This document shows, piece by piece, positions 1,722 to 56,027 of a DNA stretch of 56,027 nucleotides (its first letter is position 1; each line of letters starts with the position of its first letter). The position numbers were made by a program, and so were the translations under genes. This stretch comes from a virus. The stretch covers positions 1-56,027 of the IMG/VR virus record IMGVR_UViG_3300025154_001007; one strand, written 5' to 3'. The notes under the pieces are model-generated. The model searched no databases, was not told the origin of the DNA, and saw only the letters and a program-made list of their open reading frames with translations.

Positions 1722-2714
1722 TTACCCTTTCAGTTTTTCGCCGTCGATCCAGCCCTTCATAATGCCCTCATTTATAATATTGGCCGTAACGATATTTTCT
1801 ACCGCTCCGGTTTTGGCCTTGTAGAAGGGCGGGCAAGCAATATCGAATAAGTCTACGTTGTAAACATCGTACCAACTGACCAGCATGTAATAGATTCCAC
1901 CGAGTTGCATGTTGAAAAAGCTCGTCTTATTGGGCCGCCACCAGATAGGCTTTGCACCGTGCTTTTCGAGGCGCTTGACCATATCGGATGTGAATATCTT
2001 TGACTTGGCTTTGTTCTCTGCCCATAGGTTAGTGGCGGCCTTGATCCTTACTGACTCGATGGCGTCTTTGTTGGCTTCACAATAGGCAAGGATGCCATCA
2101 ATTTGTGAAAGGTCGTCTATCACAAAGAGCAGGGATTCGAGTTTGATTCCGTTTTGTTTGAAGGCTTCGACTACATTATAGTCTGCTCCGTTCGATTCTG
2201 GGTGCATTGAAAGGTTGATGGAAATCGTTCTGTGATCGTTTCCAAGAAGCGGTATCAAATCTTCGAGGTGATCGACAAGCTTTGTTCCGTTGGTCAAAAG
2301 CTCAACCGGAGCAATCGCTTTGACAGCCTTGACGATTTCAACAAGATCGCTCCGAAGTGTAGGCTCTCCTCCGGTCAAGATGATCGGTCCCATTGGCGCA
2401 TGAACAGTTGCTTCTGAAATGATTGACTCAAGCGTTCGATCTTTGCTTTGCTGGTCAACACCGTAATAGCAGTAGGCGCATTTCAGGTTGCATCTTTTTG
2501 TTACGTCCAGAAAATACCCTGGATAGAAGAAGGGCGCTCTGGCATTGAGGCATTGGAGATAAAACCCGACATCGCTTTCAACCGATTCGGCAAAGTGGCC
2601 GTGTATGTCGCATCTCTTTTCCATAACCACAACGCCGTTTAGAATCCCCACCTCTGCCGGTATTCTCTTGTAACAAGTCGGACAAAACGAGACTGTTTTC
2701 CTAATTACTTGCAT
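1722..2714 (-). CDS. Radical SAM enzyme with N-terminal CxxC/CxxH zinc site
   Basis: A 330-residue radical SAM protein. The [4Fe-4S]-binding CxxxCxxC motif is at residues 75-82 (C75, C79, C82), followed by the GGEPT SAM-binding motif at 115-119. A CxxC (C11, C14) plus CxxH (C35, H38) pair at the N terminus resembles the metal site in front of the radical SAM core of MoaA/Tes-like proteins. The barrel appears short and no SPASM cysteine cluster is obvious at the C terminus. Its start overlaps the GNAT gene by 10 nt, which in turn overlaps the ejection-protein gene, so all three are translationally linked. The substrate is unknown; the setting suggests a virion protein or a host surface molecule, which is inference. 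Confidence 0.9.
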   Translation of the reverse strand: MQVIRKTVSFCPTCYKRIPAEVGILNGVVVMEKRCDIHGHFAESVESDVGFYLQCLNARAPFFYPGYFLDVTKRCNLKCAYCYYGVDQQSKDRTLESIISEATVHAPMGPIILTGGEPTLRSDLVEIVKAVKAIAPVELLTNGTKLVDHLEDLIPLLGNDHRTISINLSMHPESNGADYNVVEAFKQNGIKLESLLFVIDDLSQIDGILAYCEANKDAIESVRIKAATNLWAENKAKSKIFTSDMVKRLEKHGAKPIWWRPNKTSFFNMQLGGIYYMLVSWYDVYNVDLFDIACPPFYKAKTGAVENIVTANIINEGIMKGWIDGEKLKG

Positions 2715-3184
2715 GTCCCCCCCTTAATGAAAAACTGCTCAAAATGTTCAAACCCTCGCTTCTTATACAACCTGTCAACCCCTTCCTTGATAGGCGTATT
2801 GATTGATATCATTACTACCTTATTTGCACCTTTTTTAAAAGACTCCTTTTCGAATTTATCTATCAGCCTGATACTGTTCATCCCCCTGTATTCTTCGTCC
2901 ACCCAATAGAAAAGTTCAATCATCAGCTTGATGCTGCGGTTATATCCCCAAGTACTGAGTCTTCCAGCAATCCCGCCCCGGACTTTGCCGCAAGGATCGT
3001 CTTTCAGCAAAATGACCAGCCCGGCTTCGTCCAGAATATAACCGGACAAAACCATATCCTTGAAGTCTTCACGGTTTAAGGGCATGCCTTGAGATTCATA
3101 GTCGGCATAGCTGAAAAACCTTTCGGCGCAATCCGCTATGCCTTCTATGTCAAATCTTGTGGCCGGAACGATTATCATCCCCAT
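2705..3184 (-). CDS. GNAT-family N-acetyltransferase
   Basis: A 159-residue protein with GNAT layout: an N-terminal strand and helix, then a motif A region around residues 95-120 (VDEEYRGMNS, with only a degenerate pyrophosphate loop), and a C-terminal LYKKRGFEHFEQ segment typical of motif B. GNATs of this kind occur among virion genes of many tailed phages, mostly with unknown targets. ATG 3184 lies inside the end of the upstream ejection gene, and the gene's own end overlaps the radical SAM start. The two enzymes therefore look co-translated. Acceptor unknown. Confidence 0.82.
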   Translation of the reverse strand: MGMIIVPATRFDIEGIADCAERFFSYADYESQGMPLNREDFKDMVLSGYILDEAGLVILLKDDPCGKVRGGIAGRLSTWGYNRSIKLMIELFYWVDEEYRGMNSIRLIDKFEKESFKKGANKVVMISINTPIKEGVDRLYKKRGFEHFEQFFIKGGTCK

Positions 3185-4781: not shown

Positions 4782-4976
4782 TCACTTAGTCGTCAAGCCC
4801 CTGATTATGGCCAATAAAGCGTTGTAATCAGCAACAATTCCTGCGACATCAACGGCTGTGCTGTCAGCCGGGCAGTTACCTATGAGCTTGTTCCATAGGG
4901 CGGCGTTTTGCTTTGAGTATTCCCTGCGGCCTTGTTCTGTGTCGGCGTTGGGAGATAGTACCTTTTTCTCTGCCAT
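4782..4976 (-). CDS. Small unknown protein in the virion operon
   Basis: A 64-residue polar protein starting MAEKKVLSPN. Its ATG overlaps the stop codon of the gp10-like gene (TAATG), so translation is probably coupled. It contains a predicted C-terminal helix (about residues 40-60). It has no cysteines, signal or known motif. Constant spacing in the operon suggests a small structural or assembly factor, but this is not shown by the sequence. Confidence 0.7.
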   Translation of the reverse strand: MAEKKVLSPNADTEQGRREYSKQNAALWNKLIGNCPADSTAVDVAGIVADYNALLAIIRGLTTK

Positions 4977-6397
4977 TATGCGCCCCTCATGTCTTCTTGG
5001 ATGCTGACTAGGATTATGGGCGAATCATCGGTTATGGCCCATTCGTATTGACGGGTGTAGTATTGACCGCAAGGCCCGATCCTCTTTCGGTAGTCGGTTG
5101 AGCCGGTCGCTCCGAGCGTAATGGTTCTTTCGGTCTTCCAGCTTGTTCCTGGGTTGTCTCGCCACTTGAAGGTCAATGTGGCTATATCCGCAGATAGTTG
5201 GTTAGAGTCGCGTTTACAGTAGAACATATACCGAAGGGCGGTCTTTCGGATGTCCGGGGCTCCGTGGTGAACCATTGGGGTTCTGCCCATACTGCGCATG
5301 ATCTGGCCGTCATCCTGGTAGGTCGATGAGTCGAGCTTAAAGACCTTGCCAGAGGACCGATCCCCAGCGAGCGATAGGTTCCATTTGGTAGCTATGCAAA
5401 AATGCTGCCCCTTGAATCGGTTATATAGGGCTGTCACGGTATTCCATGAGCCGAGTTCAAACCAATAGGCCCCATTCAAATCAAGGCATAAGGTTTTGTC
5501 TTCGGTTGGGAAGCTCAAAATGTACTGAGGTCTGCCGTCAAAGTATGCGATCCCTCCGATGGCGTCGGATACCGAAGAAAAGCCTTGAATGTATTTGTTC
5601 GCTGTTAAGGCGATGGGCTCCACGCTTCGCCCGCCGCTGGACATTGCAACAATCTGGCGCTGATGGTCGAGCCATAACCATACCCCTCGGCCACTGAAAA
5701 ACACGGCTGAATGGGGCGCTGAGATCCCGCTTTCAACGGTGTATTGAGACTCTTTGACGAACGGGGTTACTCCGTCGTTTCTGTGGCCTTCTGTCGAGAC
5801 TTTACCGAAAAGCTCTATTTTATCCTGGGCAACCCCAAGGGCCGACAGCAGGTCGGGATAGGTCGAGGCCGATGCCCAATTCGATTGCCAATCTTCCGGG
5901 GCGTCCACTTGTGCCCACCAATATCTTTCTGATCCGGATTCAAGGGCCAAGAGATATTTATCGAGAACGGCGACATGGGAAACCGTCGTAGGGGCGTCGG
6001 CGTCCGCGATATATTCGGTGGTTCCAGAGGATTTAATTTCAACTATCCGGCCACCATTTGCGGCGTAAAGCGAGGTTCCGAAGTCGGCAAAATAGACTTT
6101 TTCGCCAACTTCGAAAGTATCCCCGGTAACATCTGAGAAAGTGCCGTTCTGGTCAGTGATTTTGTAGCAATTTCCGTTGCTGATTGCGATTACACACTCT
6201 TGCCGGTCCCACCAATAAAGGCCGTCGATTCCAGCGCCGGAGAGGGTATCGACCCACGCCAAAAGACCGGGCCGACGAACCACGTTGCCGTTAGAGTCAA
6301 GAAAGGCATCGACCAGGGCCGCTCCGTGAGTGGTCAGGCCGATTTCATCTATGTCTTTGTTTGCGCCTATATTTATTGGGAGTGCCTTGATTGTCAT
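4976..6397 (-). CDS. Packaged-DNA stabilization / tail hub protein, P22 gp10-like
   Basis: A 473-residue protein resembling the P22 gp10 family that closes the portal vertex and anchors tail components. Visible hallmarks are the N-terminal segment ending in RRPGLLAW, repeated beta strands typical of a propeller-like fold (about residues 40-330), and an aromatic-rich C-terminal jelly-roll-like part. Length is close to P22 gp10 (about 470). It lies between the tail-fibre and ejection genes, the gp10 position. The start is ATG 6397. It is divergent from the rightward gene at 6464 with only 66 bp between them, so an upstream promoter for its leftward transcription would have to lie beyond that inserted gene. 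Confidence 0.85.
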   Translation of the reverse strand: MTIKALPINIGANKDIDEIGLTTHGAALVDAFLDSNGNVVRRPGLLAWVDTLSGAGIDGLYWWDRQECVIAISNGNCYKITDQNGTFSDVTGDTFEVGEKVYFADFGTSLYAANGGRIVEIKSSGTTEYIADADAPTTVSHVAVLDKYLLALESGSERYWWAQVDAPEDWQSNWASASTYPDLLSALGVAQDKIELFGKVSTEGHRNDGVTPFVKESQYTVESGISAPHSAVFFSGRGVWLWLDHQRQIVAMSSGGRSVEPIALTANKYIQGFSSVSDAIGGIAYFDGRPQYILSFPTEDKTLCLDLNGAYWFELGSWNTVTALYNRFKGQHFCIATKWNLSLAGDRSSGKVFKLDSSTYQDDGQIMRSMGRTPMVHHGAPDIRKTALRYMFYCKRDSNQLSADIATLTFKWRDNPGTSWKTERTITLGATGSTDYRKRIGPCGQYYTRQYEWAITDDSPIILVSIQEDMRGA

Positions 6398-6406
6398 TTT
6401 TTTACC

Positions 6407-6442
6407 TTGACACGTATGCCTGATGTATGCCTATCATATGCC
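6407..6442 (+). promoter_or_regulatory. Promoter with three TATGCC repeats at 11-bp spacing
   Basis: A TTGACA box lies at 6407-6412. TATCAT at 6432-6437 is a possible -10 box, although the 19-bp gap is long. TATGCC occurs at 6415, 6426 and 6437, exactly 11 bp apart, so all three face the same side of the helix. The next gene starts with a ribbon-helix-helix domain, a class that binds tandem direct repeats and represses its own promoter, so autoregulation is likely. Confidence 0.65.
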
Positions 6443-6463
6443 CAACCAACACAGGAGGTCCGT

Positions 6464-7084
6464 ATGAAACGAATCAGTGTTTTTTTGCCGGAACCGTTTA
6501 TCGTTGCCCTGGAAAAGCTTGCCGCAAAGAAGGGATCGAACGTGTCTCAGTTGATCCGTGACGCTATTCATGCGTTTTTGAAGGCTGCCGGGGCGCTGTA
6601 TGTTCTGCTTGTGATCGGGTGCGCACAGAGTCCATCCGAAAGCGAAGAGTATTCTGAAAGAATCCGCGAATGGCAGACAAGGGAACAGGCGAGCCCGGAG
6701 ATTGTTACGCAGTGTCCCGAAGCTATAGATATCGTCGCAGATATCGGTAGCGTGCTCAACGAAGCTGCCTTTGGCTTTAGATACCGCACAGAAAAAGGGA
6801 ATTACTGGAAGACATCTTTTGAGGCGATAAGAGATGGTTTTGGCGACTGCGAAGACTCCGCCGCCATAGCATATAGAGTTATAAGCGATTCTTGCCTTGT
6901 AGCGAGATATGGGCTTGATGTCAGAATGAGGGCGGTCGATATTGAAGACTCTGACGATAACCACGTTATAGCCATAGCTTATACAGATTCCGGCGAGTTT
7001 GTAGAAATAAGTAATTTGTTTGCAAAAATCGGAGAAAGCGATAGACGCGTTATCGCAGAATTTACTGAATCTGAAATTTATTAG
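6464..7084 (+). CDS. RHH domain plus lipoprotein signal plus transglutaminase-like domain
   Basis: A 206-residue frame starting at ATG 6464 behind AGGAGG (6453-6458). Residues 1-42 form a CopG/Arc-like ribbon-helix-helix (MKRISVFLPE). Directly after comes a hydrophobic run ending in VIGC (C53), a lipobox. Residues 75-206 carry Cys-His-Asn/Asp spacing of a transglutaminase-like cysteine peptidase (GDCED, C129; H167; EISN about 184). A DNA-binding domain and an export signal on one chain conflict in location. TTG codon 39 (6578) would instead start a textbook lipoprotein (MKAAGALYVLL after initiation), so the frame may encode two products. It lies alone on the plus strand between leftward tail genes, like a moron. 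Whether this is one fused protein or two is unresolved. Confidence 0.75.
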   Translation: MKRISVFLPEPFIVALEKLAAKKGSNVSQLIRDAIHAFLKAAGALYVLLVIGCAQSPSESEEYSERIREWQTREQASPEIVTQCPEAIDIVADIGSVLNEAAFGFRYRTEKGNYWKTSFEAIRDGFGDCEDSAAIAYRVISDSCLVARYGLDVRMRAVDIEDSDDNHVIAIAYTDSGEFVEISNLFAKIGESDRRVIAEFTESEIY

Positions 7085-7121: not shown

Positions 7122-8750
7122 TTAATTTTTACCGTAGCTCACCAGCCTCATATGGGAATAATTGCTACCCGTGTACGATGATGTCCAATATGTATCGAAT
7201 CGACCCGAACTATCGAGTGGTATAGTTGCCTCAGATGAATTTGACGACACATTACCGCCAGCAGAATCAGTAAATGAATCTATATCAATTATGTCTGTGT
7301 AATTGTCGGCAGCACCAACTGTCCCTGTTTTTCTCGCATAGGCCTGGAAAGTCACGCTGGAAGATACCGGCCCGCCGTTTGCCACGGCCTTTACATAGAC
7401 CCTAATCCAACTAGACCCTGCGGGAACGCTATCAAGAGCTGTCCAGATATTGGCTGCCCCAGAACCTGTCGGGCCAACACTTTCCCACGCATTTTCTGCT
7501 ACCGAGGTTGTCAAGGTAAATAGCGCGGAACTGATGGCGGGATACCCACTGGCATGCGTTACTGCCGTTTCTCCACCTACATCTACGCCGCCGATCTGCA
7601 AGCCAACCGGAAAATTAGCTACGCCATCTGCGCCTAATTCAAGCGAAGACAGGCCAGTATTATGATCGAAAACAATATTTCTAGGGCTAGTGGCATGGTC
7701 TTTGCTGTAAATACGTATTCCGGCAGAGTCGCCTGATAAATCATATGGTCCAGCCCTGAGCCTAAGTTCGTCACGATCAACGTGATCGGTCCTTATTATC
7801 GCCACGTCTGTAACGCTGACGCTATTTCCCACCTCTAACTGGCCGCCAGTTACCGAAAGGCCATCCGTAAAGGTCTTGCCTGATAGATTCTCTGTACCGT
7901 CAAGCGTCACAAGGTTGTTTATGTCTGCTGCCGTTCTCGTGACGGCATGCAGCTTGGCAAAGTCGGCGGCAACAGCGCCTTGGTCGTGAAGTTGATTTAC
8001 TTCTGTTGCTGTGGTTGTCTGTAGTGTCCCGCCGATTGACAATGCGTCTACATCGGTAGCCGTGCTGTTGATTACAACCCGATCAACGCCAGCGGTCTTG
8101 ATCCGCACTTCGTCAACGTCTGCCGTGCGCTCAACCTCAATACCTGTGTCGCCATCTGAATCAAGCGTTGCAGACCTGATTCCGGCAATCCGAAGCGCTG
8201 TCCCGGAAGCATTGGGAACCACTTCAATGATTGTTCCAACTGAGGTAAACGCATAGTTCGCTGCGCCTTCAATGAGTTCTGCGCCAGAGGGATCAAGCGT
8301 AATGGCGTTAGCGCCTGATATGTGCATAATCTTTAAAGGGGAAACCCACGAAGAAACAGCCAGGAGATTGATTGTTACCGCGCCCGCCGTGGTATCGACT
8401 TCTAAAAAGTCGTCATCGCTGGTCTGCGAGGTCGTAGACGATACGGCCCGATTGTAATAATTTGGGTGCCGAACCTTTACGTTATCCCGCGGGAATCCAG
8501 AAACCTGCGCGCCGTCAACGTCGAGCACGTTGATTTTGTAAACGCCGTCGCCGTAGAGTTGGGCGGTTCCGATAGCCGAAAGCGTGTAGGACGTGAAAGG
8601 ATTGGTCTTTTCTTTTTCGGTCCATACGTTCTTTGGCGTGGTGGTTCCGGCTGAATAGAAATAGGCCGTGCCGCCGTTGACCAATTGCCCGGTTGAGGCG
8701 TCCCTGATTCCGGCCAAAAGTATTTCAATCTGGACTGCGCGAGTGCTCAT
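7122..8750 (-). CDS. Tail fibre / tailspike-like protein
   Basis: A 542-residue protein. The N terminus (MSTRAVQIEILLAGIRD) with its ASTGQLVNGGTAYFYSAGT segment resembles the virion-binding domains of phage fibres. Strand-rich repeats follow (about residues 130-400), with a recurrent pattern of short strands and Asp/Gly turns, and then a compact C-terminal beta domain likely to bind the receptor. It immediately follows the gp4-like gene (stop at 8751). No hydrolase residues were identified, so it is called a fibre rather than a depolymerase. Host receptor unknown. Confidence 0.75.
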   Translation of the reverse strand: MSTRAVQIEILLAGIRDASTGQLVNGGTAYFYSAGTTTPKNVWTEKEKTNPFTSYTLSAIGTAQLYGDGVYKINVLDVDGAQVSGFPRDNVKVRHPNYYNRAVSSTTSQTSDDDFLEVDTTAGAVTINLLAVSSWVSPLKIMHISGANAITLDPSGAELIEGAANYAFTSVGTIIEVVPNASGTALRIAGIRSATLDSDGDTGIEVERTADVDEVRIKTAGVDRVVINSTATDVDALSIGGTLQTTTATEVNQLHDQGAVAADFAKLHAVTRTAADINNLVTLDGTENLSGKTFTDGLSVTGGQLEVGNSVSVTDVAIIRTDHVDRDELRLRAGPYDLSGDSAGIRIYSKDHATSPRNIVFDHNTGLSSLELGADGVANFPVGLQIGGVDVGGETAVTHASGYPAISSALFTLTTSVAENAWESVGPTGSGAANIWTALDSVPAGSSWIRVYVKAVANGGPVSSSVTFQAYARKTGTVGAADNYTDIIDIDSFTDSAGGNVSSNSSEATIPLDSSGRFDTYWTSSYTGSNYSHMRLVSYGKN

Positions 8751-9462: not shown

Positions 9463-9747
9463 TTAATCCTTGATGAACTTCAGTTGGACCTTTTTAATGG
9501 GGAAGGGCTCTTTGGCTTTTTTGGCCTTCTTGATGAACTCGCGCTCGGCGTAGTTGGGAGCGCCTACGGTGAAGAGGATTTCAGCGATACGGCTACGCTT
9601 ATCAATCTTGCTCTTGAATCGCTTCCTGGTAGCTTTGACCGTCAGTTTGGGACTGATATACTTCGTCGCCTTGACCGCGCCGTGATACAGAATGCACTCC
9701 GATAGTTCCTTAAAAACCATGCTTTGACCTAAAAAGTCTTGCGCCAT
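9463..9747 (-). CDS. Conserved small phage protein, paralogue of 22460-22750
   Basis: A basic 94-residue protein of unknown function. It shares the blocks GAVKATKYISPKL, KATRKR, VGAPNYAEREFIKKAKKAKE and PFP.K.VQ with the gene at 22460-22750, so the phage carries two diverged copies. This copy sits among head-tail genes. The strongly basic, strand-forming core could bind nucleic acid, but no known motif supports a function. Confidence 0.78.
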   Translation of the reverse strand: MAQDFLGQSMVFKELSECILYHGAVKATKYISPKLTVKATRKRFKSKIDKRSRIAEILFTVGAPNYAEREFIKKAKKAKEPFPIKKVQLKFIKD

Positions 9748-22460: not shown

Positions 22461-22750
22461 CAGTACCCCTTCTGGAACCGCATCTGAACGTGTTTCACAG
22501 GGAACGCTTCTTTCGCTTTCTTGGCCGCTTTGATGAACTCGCGCTCGGCAAAGTTCGGGGCGCCCACGGTGAATACGATCTGGGCAACACTGCCTTTTCG
22601 ATTATCGATTTTACCCTTAAGCCTCTTGCGCGTGGCCTTGATGACAAGTTTGGGACTCAGGTATTTGGTGGCCTTTACAGCACCATCCATGTCAAGCGCT
22701 GAAGCAAGTTCTCCGAATACACGCCAATGCTCAGTAAAAGATGTGTTCAT
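22460..22750 (-). CDS. Conserved small phage protein, paralogue of 9463-9747
   Basis: A 96-residue basic protein sharing MDGAVKATKYLSPKL, KATRKRLKGKID, VGAPNFAEREFIKAAKKAKE and PFPVKHVQ with the copy in the head-tail module. It precedes the terminase cluster and follows a strong hairpin. The N-terminal 18 residues differ most between copies. Function unknown. Confidence 0.78.
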   Translation of the reverse strand: MNTSFTEHWRVFGELASALDMDGAVKATKYLSPKLVIKATRKRLKGKIDNRKGSVAQIVFTVGAPNFAEREFIKAAKKAKEAFPVKHVQMRFQKGY

Positions 22751-28321: not shown

Positions 28322-29107
28322 CTATTCCGCCATAGGTATTTCGTTCAGGTAATTTTCGAAGTTTTCCTCAGAAAAAAGGGTTTTTGGCCGAAGGTAGATC
28401 GCCATATCCCTTCCATCTGACGCTTTTTTATCAATCCATTGTCTGGTTTTATGTTCAATCACACACTTGAAATCTTCGAGCGTATAACCCTGGTTCCATC
28501 TGCCAGAAATATGTTTTTGATGCGTCTTTGAAGTCCACCTGAAATCTTTATTCGCGACCTCATTGAGGTGGCCGATGATCTCCTTGAAGGGGATGTTTTT
28601 CGCCCCATCAACTTTTGAAGGTATGTTTAGTTTAGGAGAAGGAGAAGGAGAAGGAGAAGGGGCATTGCGGTCTTGATGCGCCTCCGATGCGGGCGCATAT
28701 GCGTCAGCAATGCGTCCGCATTTTTCATTGTCCTTACTGACGTTTAGCTTCTTGTCCCATCGTGAAAACGCGGCCTTTTTAGCGGCTTCTGACCTTGATT
28801 TTGCCCCACATGCCCACCCTTGATGCTCATCCCAATCGTGCAACTTGTACGTTCCTTCATCCATCAAATCAAGAAATCCACACTGGCGCAATGCGTCCGC
28901 ATATGCGTCCGCATTGCCCTCGCATCCTGATGCTATAGCAATGTCAGTTGCATCCCACCCGGTCAACACTCCATCCGGCCTGTCTTGGGCTACGGTGAGC
29001 CACAAATCGATAAGATAATCCGTTGAACCAGGGCCGAGTATCATCTTAAGCCTTTTGCGCTTTCGATGCCCTTTGAAGGATACAAGAAGCCGAATGTCGG
29101 TGTTCAT
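28322..29107 (-). CDS. Replisome organizer / initiator with Phg_2220_C domain
   Basis: A 261-residue protein. The N-terminal winged-helix-like part (LLVSFKGHRKRKRLKMILG, YLIDLWLTVAQDRPDG) resembles phage replisome organizers. After a Ser-Pro repeat linker (about residues 150-158) comes the conserved phage C-terminal domain TIGR02220/PF09524: IIGHLNEVANKDFRWT, then YLRPKTLFSEENFENYLNE. Such proteins load the DnaB-type helicase at the origin; the phage helicase gene lies just upstream. Repeated 12-mers inside the gene may be its binding sites, as in lambda O. The start is ATG 29107, overlapping the RHH stop. Confidence 0.8.
   Translation of the reverse strand: MNTDIRLLVSFKGHRKRKRLKMILGPGSTDYLIDLWLTVAQDRPDGVLTGWDATDIAIASGCEGNADAYADALRQCGFLDLMDEGTYKLHDWDEHQGWACGAKSRSEAAKKAAFSRWDKKLNVSKDNEKCGRIADAYAPASEAHQDRNAPSPSPSPSPKLNIPSKVDGAKNIPFKEIIGHLNEVANKDFRWTSKTHQKHISGRWNQGYTLEDFKCVIEHKTRQWIDKKASDGRDMAIYLRPKTLFSEENFENYLNEIPMAE
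28635..28658. repeat. (GGAGAA)4 tandem hexanucleotide
   Basis: Four perfect GGAGAA units inside the replisome organizer gene. They encode the Ser-Pro linker on the minus strand. Changes in copy number would stay in frame and only alter linker length. Confidence 0.9.
28694..28914. repeat. Iteron-like 12-mers inside the replication gene
   Basis: ATGCGTCCGCAT occurs three times: 28710-28721, and in tandem at 28891-28902 and 28903-28914. Partial copies flank them (GCGCATATGCG at 28694). Both clusters encode similar ADAYA peptides, so coding constraint may explain part of the similarity. Origin iterons within an initiator gene are known from lambda O. Confidence 0.5.
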
Positions 29108-29301
29108 CTTTTCGTGTGCCTTCTGTGGTTGCTCTGGTTTGCTGGCGGTCCTGGCTCAAGTCCATTCTCAACCATCGGTAAATAGTGATCTATGGCCCAC
29201 CTAACCAACATCGACATAGGAATGCCTGTCTTTTGGCTTAATTCTTTGAGCCGACGCTTCTTGCTTGGATGGATTTTTAACAAGTATGTTTCGTATTTCA
29301 T
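29104..29301 (-). CDS. Ribbon-helix-helix DNA-binding protein
   Basis: A 65-residue protein (MKYETYLLKIHPSKK). An N-terminal strand is followed by two helices (RRLKELSQKTGIP, SMLVRWAIDHYLPMV), the Arc/CopG RHH fold. A polar tail follows. It is the first gene behind the TTGACA promoter at 29334-29363 and overlaps the replisome organizer start by 4 nt. It probably regulates this promoter. Confidence 0.8.
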   Translation of the reverse strand: MKYETYLLKIHPSKKRRLKELSQKTGIPMSMLVRWAIDHYLPMVENGLEPGPPANQSNHRRHTKR

Positions 29302-53439: not shown

Positions 53440-56027
53440 GTTCTCTGCCGCAACCGTCCCGACTACCGCCGCCGCCCTTGAAACGCCTGTTTTGGCCTGC
53501 TTGTACGCATCAAGGCTTATAATTTTGTCCTTAAGCTGTGCGCTTAGTTTGGCGGGCTGGATCTTTCCGTTTGCCGCCCTTATCAGAAAGTCAGCATATT
53601 CAGGATCGAACATGGCCCGCGTTACGAGTTTATCGATTTCCTTTGTGCTGTGCTTATTGAGAACCGTTGCGAGCCCTTTAACGACTGATGCCGTGCGTGA
53701 CATATGGGTTAGGGTAGAAAGCCGCCCAAGGACGTTCTCTGCCGTGTCCGAGCCACCGCCTATGGCGCTCCGTGTGTTCCTCGTTGAAATCTCATAGGCC
53801 CGTTGCATGGTTTTTAGGGCGTTGAGCTTTTCCGGTGTGCTCTTATACAAAACATCCATTGCCGGTTCATACTTTTTCATGATCCTTGAGAAAGCCGCGT
53901 TGGATACCGTGGGATTGTTGGCAATATCCTTGGCTGTCGTTTCTACCATTCGCATGATATGATCGGCAAAGGCGTTCTGAAGTCCTGCGGTAGCCGCTTT
54001 GTCGCCCTTAACCATATTCAAAAGGTCCATAGCCGCCTTGGTCGTGTTGTTGCCTTTAATGGCGTTGGCTATGGCCTTTTCTGTATCGGAATTAAGGATT
54101 CTGGAGGCCGCCGACTTTTCAAATTCTGCCGCTGCTTTGGCTGCACCGTCCGCTATGTTTTGCGCTCCTTCAACGTCGCTGAAATCAAGGCCGTATTTTT
54201 CAAGTGATTGCTTGTTTCTGTTGAGCCACGAGGTCAATTTTGAAGTGACTATATCGCCGTTCTGGTTTGTCGCGGATTTCAGTAGGTCGTAGGCGTAATG
54301 GCCTTTCATGATCCCGCTGGCTTTTTCTTGACCTACGGCCCTGATTAGATCCTCTGCGCCTGAGACTGTGGTAAATAGGCTTGGGATGTCTTCGGTTCTG
54401 GTAGCCGCGCCGGTCGCCTCTTTGCCTTTGGTGAGAGCTTTTCTAACCGCGCCCTTGTCAAACTTTCCGAAGTATTCAGAAGAGGCGAAGTCGTTAAAAG
54501 CTTTCATGGAGCTGGCAACGTCCTTACCGGGTTCAACGGCGTTTAGGATTTCCCTCAATTCCAAAATTCTCTTGTCGGTTTCGCCAGCGGCACCCAGGCC
54601 GGTATTTTTCATGAGCGGGTCTTTGCCAAAAATCCTTTTGTAGTCCCTGGACAACCGGGCCGCAAAACTAGTGTCGTCTTCTCCATATTGCCGCATCATG
54701 GTAAAGCCGTTTTTGTCCTTGATGGCCTTTACCATGCCTTCAATGTCGGGGGCTTGGCTGGCTTTTAGTTGCGCCGATCTTACGGTAGCTTTTTCGAGTT
54801 CATCGGCTAAAACGTCTGTGTTGACGGGTTTGCCTTTGTATTCTCCGATCTTGCCGCTTCTTGCCATATTTGATAATTCGGCAAGGTCTTTTTCGAGTGC
54901 GTCCCTTACTCCTGTCAGCGCTTCGCCAACTGATTTGTTTCCACCAGGTGCGAACGCCTTGGATATTTCATCGTTGAGCGTTCGCCGGATGCCCATGGCC
55001 GTGAAGGTGGTTTTGCCGCGGTCGTCAAGAATCCTTTCGATCTTGTTTTCGGTTTTGAATATTGCCGACACTTGGTCATCGGAAAGCTTCTTGTTGGCCC
55101 TGGCCTCGCTGATGGACTTGCGAACATTGCCGAAGGTCATGGGGTAATCAGGGATTGAGGATTCAAGTTCATTCAGAGTGGCCTGCACCGGCTTTTTTGC
55201 AGAGCGGATAGCGTCAACGGCTTCTTCTCCCACCGCTTGAGGTGGAGCCGGGCCCATGCTATTGACCATCGGCCTAACTGCGCCTCTTTTGGTTGAAGCT
55301 TCTCTGTCGATGGCCGTTTTTTTGCCGCCGAGCGAACTGATTAAATCGTCAATATTTCCCTGCCCACCAAAGTTCTTGTCGTAGTGCGCCCGTAAAGCTT
55401 CGTTGTTGGCTGCAATCTGTTCGGCGTTTTGGGTGGCCGCATCGGTTGCCCTGATTTGTGAGCGCTCAAGCTTAATCATGGCTGGGTCGCCGGTTCTTTG
55501 CCCAAGGGTGAATTTCAGGCCCTGGATTTCTTTTTCAATACGTGCGGCTTCTTCGGCGTTTCGAGCGTAGATAGTGCCTTCCGATGTATTGGCCCTGAGA
55601 ATGTTACCAGCTTGCTTTTCAAACTCTTTTTTGGAGACAAGGCCGGATAGACCGCCAGTTGCCTTCTTGAAGATCGTCTTCCCGCCACGTAGTACAGGGA
55701 CAAGGGCCGCGCCTATCGCTGCACCTCCAACCTCAAGGGCCGCGCCTGTGGCAAGATCCTTCCCGGCCTCAGTGAACGATTCGACCGGGCCAGAATATTT
55801 TTCTTTAACCCCTGCGTACATATCCAGGGTATCGGCAAGGCCCTTGCCAGAGGCATAGCCAACCGCTCCACCGGCTACGGAACCAACCGGGCCGCCTGGG
55901 GCCCCTGCAGCCGCTCCGAGCGCCGCGCCTGCACCTTCAAGTACCGGCCTGTAAAGCGGCGAAGTTGCCCGGAGTCCTTTTTTTGTGGCGTCTTCGAGCT
56001 GCGCTGTATCTTCAAGTCCTATTCCGG
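53428..56027 (-). CDS. Main part of origin-spanning ejection-type virion protein (972 residues)
   Basis: In the window this frame lacks its start; it continues from 9-453 through the circular junction, and the N terminus lies there. The segment includes a Gly/Ala zipper (GGPVGSVAGGAVGYASGKG) followed by long charged helices and coiled coils through most of its length, with an Ala/Lys-rich end. This is the composition of P22 gp16-like or other large ejection proteins that enter the host membrane. A Met at 55821 could be mistaken for the start. It ends the late operon, followed by the terminator at 53086-53123. Confidence 0.85.
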   Translation of the reverse strand, partial: GIGLEDTAQLEDATKKGLRATSPLYRPVLEGAGAALGAAAGAPGGPVGSVAGGAVGYASGKGLADTLDMYAGVKEKYSGPVESFTEAGKDLATGAALEVGGAAIGAALVPVLRGGKTIFKKATGGLSGLVSKKEFEKQAGNILRANTSEGTIYARNAEEAARIEKEIQGLKFTLGQRTGDPAMIKLERSQIRATDAATQNAEQIAANNEALRAHYDKNFGGQGNIDDLISSLGGKKTAIDREASTKRGAVRPMVNSMGPAPPQAVGEEAVDAIRSAKKPVQATLNELESSIPDYPMTFGNVRKSISEARANKKLSDDQVSAIFKTENKIERILDDRGKTTFTAMGIRRTLNDEISKAFAPGGNKSVGEALTGVRDALEKDLAELSNMARSGKIGEYKGKPVNTDVLADELEKATVRSAQLKASQAPDIEGMVKAIKDKNGFTMMRQYGEDDTSFAARLSRDYKRIFGKDPLMKNTGLGAAGETDKRILELREILNAVEPGKDVASSMKAFNDFASSEYFGKFDKGAVRKALTKGKEATGAATRTEDIPSLFTTVSGAEDLIRAVGQEKASGIMKGHYAYDLLKSATNQNGDIVTSKLTSWLNRNKQSLEKYGLDFSDVEGAQNIADGAAKAAAEFEKSAASRILNSDTEKAIANAIKGNNTTKAAMDLLNMVKGDKAATAGLQNAFADHIMRMVETTAKDIANNPTVSNAAFSRIMKKYEPAMDVLYKSTPEKLNALKTMQRAYEISTRNTRSAIGGGSDTAENVLGRLSTLTHMSRTASVVKGLATVLNKHSTKEIDKLVTRAMFDPEYADFLIRAANGKIQPAKLSAQLKDKIISLDAYKQAKTGVSRAAAVVGTVAAENSGE
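55902..56027. repeat. Right copy of 126-bp exact end repeat
   Basis: Identical to 9-134 in direct orientation. The reading frame through this copy continues directly into the left end, so the two copies represent one locus of a circle of 55,893 bp. Confidence 0.93.

Follow-up and report, generated by a model that had tools for sequence, protein, structure and literature searches.

Fusions of a ribbon-helix-helix (RHH) domain to an enzyme that repress their own genes, as in PutA, and lipoprotein morons of phages, as in T5 and T1, were known before this work. PutA is an RHH-enzyme fusion and an autogenous repressor that switches between a DNA-bound and a membrane-bound state (PMC5293562). In phage T5, the lipoprotein Llp is encoded beside the receptor-binding gene (PMC9586334). 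Within the LapG/BTLCP family of exported proteins, LapG acts in adhesin cleavage and Caulobacter HvyA in capsule control and phage sensitivity (PMC4241560). Remnants of lipoprotein signal peptides can become active peptides through signal peptidase II (SPII) and then RseP/Eep, as in the enterococcal pheromones (PMC10202637). Searches of the literature and of databases returned no report or entry of an RHH domain ahead of a lipobox, and within the library searched the literature contained neither an RHH-lipoprotein fusion nor a phage LapG.

The DNA analyzed here, referred to as the window, is the whole 56,027-nt stretch of virus record IMGVR_UViG_3300025154_001007, a podophage-type genome. One of its genes encodes, in a single frame, an RHH domain, a predicted lipoprotein signal, and a LapG/BTLCP-like domain, which we call the cargo (Table 1). 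The gene stands alone on the + strand, flanked by two virion genes on the minus strand; an earlier, sequence-only reading of this DNA had likewise set it opposite to the tail genes. That reading let the gene region begin at 6407, which belongs to the putative −35 element, the gene itself starting at the ATG at 6464. Within the tentative model developed below, the fused gene is best explained as a moron-type insertion between virion genes, divergently transcribed from its own promoter.

Table 1. Features of the fused gene, its control region and its neighbors, in window coordinates
Feature	Position	Strand	Basis
Neighbor: P22 gp10-like head-closure Hc3 / DNA stabilization protein	4976..6397	-	phrog_578, E=7e-42
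Putative promoter of the fused gene, -35 element TTGACA	6407..6412	+	read from sequence; identical in L002/L003
Candidate operator, three TATGCC, period 11 bp	6415..6442	+	same three repeats in L002/L003
Candidate -10 element, TATCAT (TATCGT in L002)	6432..6437	+	predicted from sequence
Shine-Dalgarno AGGAGG	6453..6458	+	-11.0 kcal/mol to anti-SD; stronger than 10 other starts tested in the same phage
Fused gene P0001, RHH + lipobox + LapG/BTLCP-like domain, 206 aa	6464..7084	+	ATG 6464, stop 7082-7084; homolog in L002/L003
RHH domain, residues 1-43 (Pfam 3-39)	6464..6592	+	RHH_1 profile, model alignments, selection
Junction and predicted lipoprotein signal, F38 to C53	6575..6622	+	conservation against L002; lipobox
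TTG codon 39, proposed internal start, not supported	6578..6580	+	SD pairing energy
LapG/BTLCP-like, putatively periplasmic domain; C129, H167, S183/N184	6623..7081	+	profiles below cut-off, motif, models
Neighbor: tail protein, C-terminus hypervariable past VGLQIGGV	7122..8750	-	sequence comparison among relatives

Each of the systems named above resembles this gene in part. Like trifunctional (type C) PutA, the window protein has an N-terminal RHH domain (~50 residues in PutA) fused to an enzyme-type domain. It differs from PutA in that its cargo is a cysteine-peptidase-like putative lipoprotein, in being phage-borne and only 206 aa long, and in having no flavin switch, its membrane link being the lipobox signal. 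A Pfam search of the window protein found no PRODH or P5CDH domain, and the likeness to PutA is one of logic only. T5 Llp and Cor are also phage lipoproteins coded beside a tail gene (PMC9586334), but they are small receptor-jamming proteins without a DNA-binding domain. In the enterococcal pheromones, as in our model, a functional peptide lies within a lipoprotein signal peptide, whereas the window leader would be a folded DNA-binding domain. Phage repressors of the Arc/CopG type (phrog_876, phrog_2639, phrog_582, and phrog_7325) have the RHH domain in common with the window protein; they are annotated as regulators, and none was found with a lipobox.

The gp10-like neighbor gene served as a handle for locating the same locus in relatives. 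A related phage, recovered in two metagenomes as contigs L002 and L003, carries the same fusion with 40% identity over 172 residues; the three repeats and the lipobox are kept, and gp10 is 99% identical. This sequence comparison confirms that the RHH-lipoprotein fusion is genuine, although the fused sequences number only two independent ones, both from one phage group. A sequencing error or a chance join of two genes is ruled out by the independent fused homolog. The sequence-only reading had joined RHH and lipoprotein in one frame and held that a conserved fusion lacking signal properties would count against it; the homolog is fused and retains its lipobox. Inspection of homologs for separate RHH and lipoprotein genes found none, the natural alternative being absence of the RHH domain. 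Contig L005 encodes the cargo at the same locus (52% identity over 135 aa), where it is a plain lipoprotein with the signal MKKFLVILLFVVGC, behind another promoter and with neither an RHH domain nor TATGCC repeats. Because L005 carries the same cargo behind a normal signal, the cargo probably belongs outside the cytoplasm. Where gp10 has diverged further (57% identity or less), the locus showed no gene similar to the fused one and gave no hit to the other lipoproteins found at this position in the relatives. Single-sequence and profile-pattern searches of viral contigs and genome contigs gave no further relatives, and tblastn against phages and plasmids gave no fused homolog.

Several other features of the window were recorded. 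An exact 126-bp repeat lies near both ends (9-134 and 55902-56027), and the record may represent a complete or circularly permuted genome. A 185-bp stretch occurs twice, at 9500-9681 and 22500-22684, with 71% identity, and has a match in L002 too. Radical SAM and acetyltransferase genes, a possible modification pair, adjoin the DNA-ejection gene at 1722-3184 (−). A second RHH-like ORF, standalone and 65 aa long, is located directly beside replication genes at 29104-29301 (−); its RHH score of 15.1 bits is below the cut-off, and it is RelB-like with E=2.5e-4. Viral contigs unrelated to this phage (L012, L023, L024, and others) also contain TATGCC triples with an 11-bp period, which may be arm-type integrase sites there.

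The first domain of the fused protein, taken in the sequence-only reading for a likely DNA-binding RHH, scores above the gathering cut-off of 20.5 bits for RHH_1/CopG (PF01402; E=3.1e-6, 27.4 bits; 31.1 bits for the first 49 aa). The L002 counterpart scored 21.2 bits in one search and 18.3 bits for the whole protein against the same cut-off. In the model of the window protein, helices span residues 10-23 and 27-42, and strand residues 1-6 have pLDDT <50. Residues 1-46 of this model align with CopASO (Z 6.1, rmsd 2.1, 45 aa) and with the RHH domain of PutA (Z 5.9, rmsd 2.1, 44 aa). Between the window and L002, the domain is 58% identical in nucleotides and 49% identical in amino acids, against a drift expectation of 29% (P=0.0005), so that purifying selection acts on the RHH part. 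The first residues, MKRIS, belong to the beta-strand with which an RHH domain contacts DNA; they are identical in the two phages, and the operator has stayed the same. We infer from sequence that the RHH domain binds operator DNA.

Ahead of the gene, the three TATGCC copies (6415-6420, 6426-6431, and 6437-6442) have the exact 11-bp period first noticed in the sequence-only reading. They span the spacer of the putative promoter and its candidate −10 element, ending just past TATCAT. The −35 to −10 spacer of 19 nt lies outside the 16-18-nt range of a standard promoter scan, which therefore missed the putative promoter. The array pattern matched once in the window; when the 56-kb sequence was shuffled 100 times, a match with up to three mismatches arose in 3 of the shuffles. 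No other equally spaced triple of one 6-mer (period 8-13) exists in the 56 kb, where 0.05 are expected, and the probability of such a triple in the 66-bp intergenic gap is ~1e-4. Arc-type operators have phased subsites, and a spacing of one helical turn would let RHH dimers line up along a single face of the DNA, as Arc-type repressors do. The L002 operator is near-identical to that of the window, but this conservation is not independent evidence because the spacers are nearly identical too. The array is a candidate operator for the RHH domain; the repeat taken alone does not prove such a role, since similar triples flank integrases in some contigs.

Residues 38-53 of the fused protein, FLKAAGALYVLLVIGC, form a lipoprotein-type signal that ends in the lipobox V50-I-G-C53, in frame with the RHH domain as originally read; the lipobox is VVGC in L002 and L005. 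The pattern [LVI][ASTVI][GAS]C follows a hydrophobic stretch of only ~12 residues. In the fused forms, 43 RHH residues precede this stretch, so that the n-region is long, whereas that of L005 (MKKF) is short; a folded n-region of 43 residues is atypical for a Sec signal. From the signal and lipobox, the fused protein is predicted to be exported, lipidated, and cut by SPII at C53. Junction residues 38-45 (FLKAAGAL) are identical at 8 of 8 amino acids and 92% of nucleotides between the window and L002, compared with 58% and 48% nucleotide identity in the flanks. The synonymous-codon excess at the junction was not significant between these two phages (Fisher P=0.20).

The sequence-only reading had also proposed that TTG at codon 39 starts a clean lipoprotein, which would be MKAAGALYVLLVIGC. 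This proposal is not supported: there is no Shine–Dalgarno sequence at TTG39, where the anti-SD energy is +0.7 kcal/mol (−1.5 in L002), against −11.0 kcal/mol at the ATG (−10.3 in L002). For comparison, ten other starts in the phage average −4.8 kcal/mol and internal in-frame start codons −2.0 kcal/mol. With a very strong Shine–Dalgarno sequence at the ATG and none at TTG39, the full-length chain is expected to be the main product. In the +1 frame, the RHH/lipoprotein junction reads ATG CGT TTT TGA at 6570-6581, and L002 has ATG AGT TTT TGA there. A +1 slip at TTTTTGA, which would yield a 38-residue RHH protein ending at this TGA in both phages, was considered but is not claimed, as no stimulator was seen and the run has only five T.

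The cargo shares with LapG/BTLCP proteins (Peptidase_C93), HvyA included, predicted export, a catalytic Cys and His, and the catalytic-cysteine block dYWkt..EA..dGfGDCED, which is also present in solved LapG structures. It differs in scoring below the family cut-offs, in its predicted lipid anchor, in the replaced Asp of the fused forms, and in its fusion to an RHH domain. For Peptidase_C93/BTLCP (PF06035), the window scores 18-19.1 bits and L005 24.3 bits, below the cut-off of 27; for LapG (NF045674), the scores of 18.1 and 25.7 bits are below the equivalog cut-off of 320. On these profiles, the cargo is LapG-like rather than LapG. Models of the window protein and the L005 cargo, which are of low confidence (mean pLDDT 61 and 65), align with LapG at Z 6.0-6.9 (rmsd 3.5-4.5, 110-121 residues), modest values that other transglutaminase-fold chains match. 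The models thus speak more for the transglutaminase fold class than for assignment to LapG. By itself, Foldseek returned nothing with E <0.001, and the BFVD match to a Caulobacter phage transglutaminase was weak.

C129 and H167 are invariant in the three cargo relatives (window, L002, and L005). At the third catalytic position, L005 carries an Asp 15 residues after the His, spaced as in HvyA (H226/D241); in the window S183 is followed by N184, and in L002 Glu is followed by Asp. Of the Cys-His-Asn domain described in the sequence-only reading, Cys and His are therefore present and Asn184 is a possible third member, but the canonical Asp position is occupied by Ser183. A Cys-His-Asn triad is plausible in the window protein, given that HvyA still functions with the D241N change and that C/H/N occurs in some members of the family (PMC4241560). 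Catalysis is uncertain, since the C93 scores fall short of the cut-off and another residue stands in place of the canonical Asp in both fused forms, which may be catalytically altered. Two extra cysteines, C84 and C144, are invariant among the same three proteins and would fit an oxidizing compartment.

Five further contigs (L004 and L006-L009) combine, at the same locus, a plain front of the L005 type with an unrelated 124-aa cargo. In L004, this lipoprotein (531-902, −) has only the signal peptide and promoter in common with the LapG-like one. Profile searches placed its cargo in no confident family; only its signal peptide matches phrog_1119 Cor (E=0.015), and an Llp/Cor family search gave no match for the proteins of the window, L002, or L005. 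The window cargo is closer to that of L005 than to that of L002, yet the RHH domain is common to the window and L002. Because RHH and plain fronts and LapG-like and unrelated cargos combine differently among the relatives, sequence comparison identifies the locus as a mosaic insertion site at which fronts and cargos are swapped near the lipobox. The C-terminus of the adjacent tail protein is of type A in the window and L004, type B in L005, and type C in L002, the swap following the conserved VGLQIGGV (window 7122-7700, −). A match of cargo to tail tip, as superinfection exclusion might predict, was rejected because the LapG-like cargo occurs with types A, B, and C, in a comparison of only four phages and three tail types.

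We propose, with a probability of about 0.4, that the gene encodes one pre-lipoprotein whose n-region is an RHH autorepressor and that export or membrane insertion, or else signal-peptide processing, relieves the repression. A single chain would consist of a long cytoplasmic n-region serving as repressor, a Sec/lipoprotein signal, and the LapG-like cargo, which a lipid anchor would hold at the periplasmic face of the membrane in a Gram-negative host. Bound to the three phased subsites, RHH dimers would cover the promoter and turn the gene off, and membrane insertion of the same chain would draw the RHH domain off the operator. Alternatively, SPII cleavage would leave a 52-residue remnant of RHH domain and signal peptide, tethered or released. 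PutA offers a precedent for a repressor whose location decides its activity, and the active peptides made from signal-peptide remnants offer one for a functional leader. Unexported precursor would build up, restore repression, and halt expression, so that output would be tied to export of the product. The cargo would most likely trim or block a host surface protein or a capsule step, much as LapG or HvyA does, and the surface change would affect superinfection or progeny release. Rather doubtful is the bolder version, with a transcription factor as signal-peptide n-region: each exported molecule would pull its repressor off the DNA, or one RHH peptide that intramembrane proteolysis can free would stay behind, and the moron would gauge its export flux and adjust transcription. 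Operator binding, export, processing, enzyme activity, and a surface phenotype are predictions of this work.

Other explanations accommodate parts of these data. The promoter-operator-RHH segment might have replaced the MKKF front by recombination at the lipobox and be uncoupled from export, with simple autorepression by the cytoplasmic precursor, or none. The three combinations found (RHH with LapG-like cargo in the window and L002, plain front with LapG-like cargo in L005, and plain front with unrelated cargo in L004 and L006-L009) and the closeness of the window cargo to that of L005 agree with such a capture, but purifying selection on the RHH domain and an operator kept in both phages argue that the segment is not a relic; we regard this explanation as somewhat improbable. 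It is unlikely that one frame yields two products, a full-length or RHH-only repressor from the ATG and a clean lipoprotein from TTG39. In its favor, L002 has kept TTG39 but no other alternative start codon of the RHH region, no stretch is more conserved than FLKAAGAL, and MKAAGALYVLLVIGC would be a good lipoprotein signal of the same length as MKKFLVILLFVVGC. Against it, the pairing energies at TTG39 in both phages are weaker than at the average internal in-frame start, the ATG is far stronger, and the junction has no significant synonymous-codon excess.

The hydrophobic stretch could also remain uncleaved as a short anchor, making the RHH domain a membrane-tethered repressor with a periplasmic LapG-like sensor, like membrane-bound one-component regulators. 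An N-in hydrophobic segment does separate the DNA-binding domain from the putatively periplasmic one, and the degenerate third catalytic residue suits a sensor more than an enzyme. This arrangement is nevertheless very unlikely, as the stretch is short (~12 residues), the consensus lipobox at its end is retained by all three cargo relatives, and L005 lacks any DNA-binding domain. Least credible is that the TATGCC array consists of integrase arm-type sites and not of an operator for the window RHH. The exact triple occurs in 26 viral stretches, and of 10 flanking genes scanned, 3 encode tyrosine integrases; however, no tyrosine or serine recombinase was found in the window, the integrase of the L002 contig lies ~23 kb from the array, and the array lies within the putative promoter of an RHH gene.

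If export-linked autorepression is correct, a single gene makes up the whole circuit, and its product, by being exported or inserted into the membrane, controls the transcription of that gene. Such a circuit would give the phage a compact means of keeping an envelope-active moron within safe limits, and it would offer a simple test bed for whether folded DNA-binding domains can ride on signal peptides. Among the means by which phages may alter the surfaces of their hosts, LapG/HvyA-like domains become further candidates.
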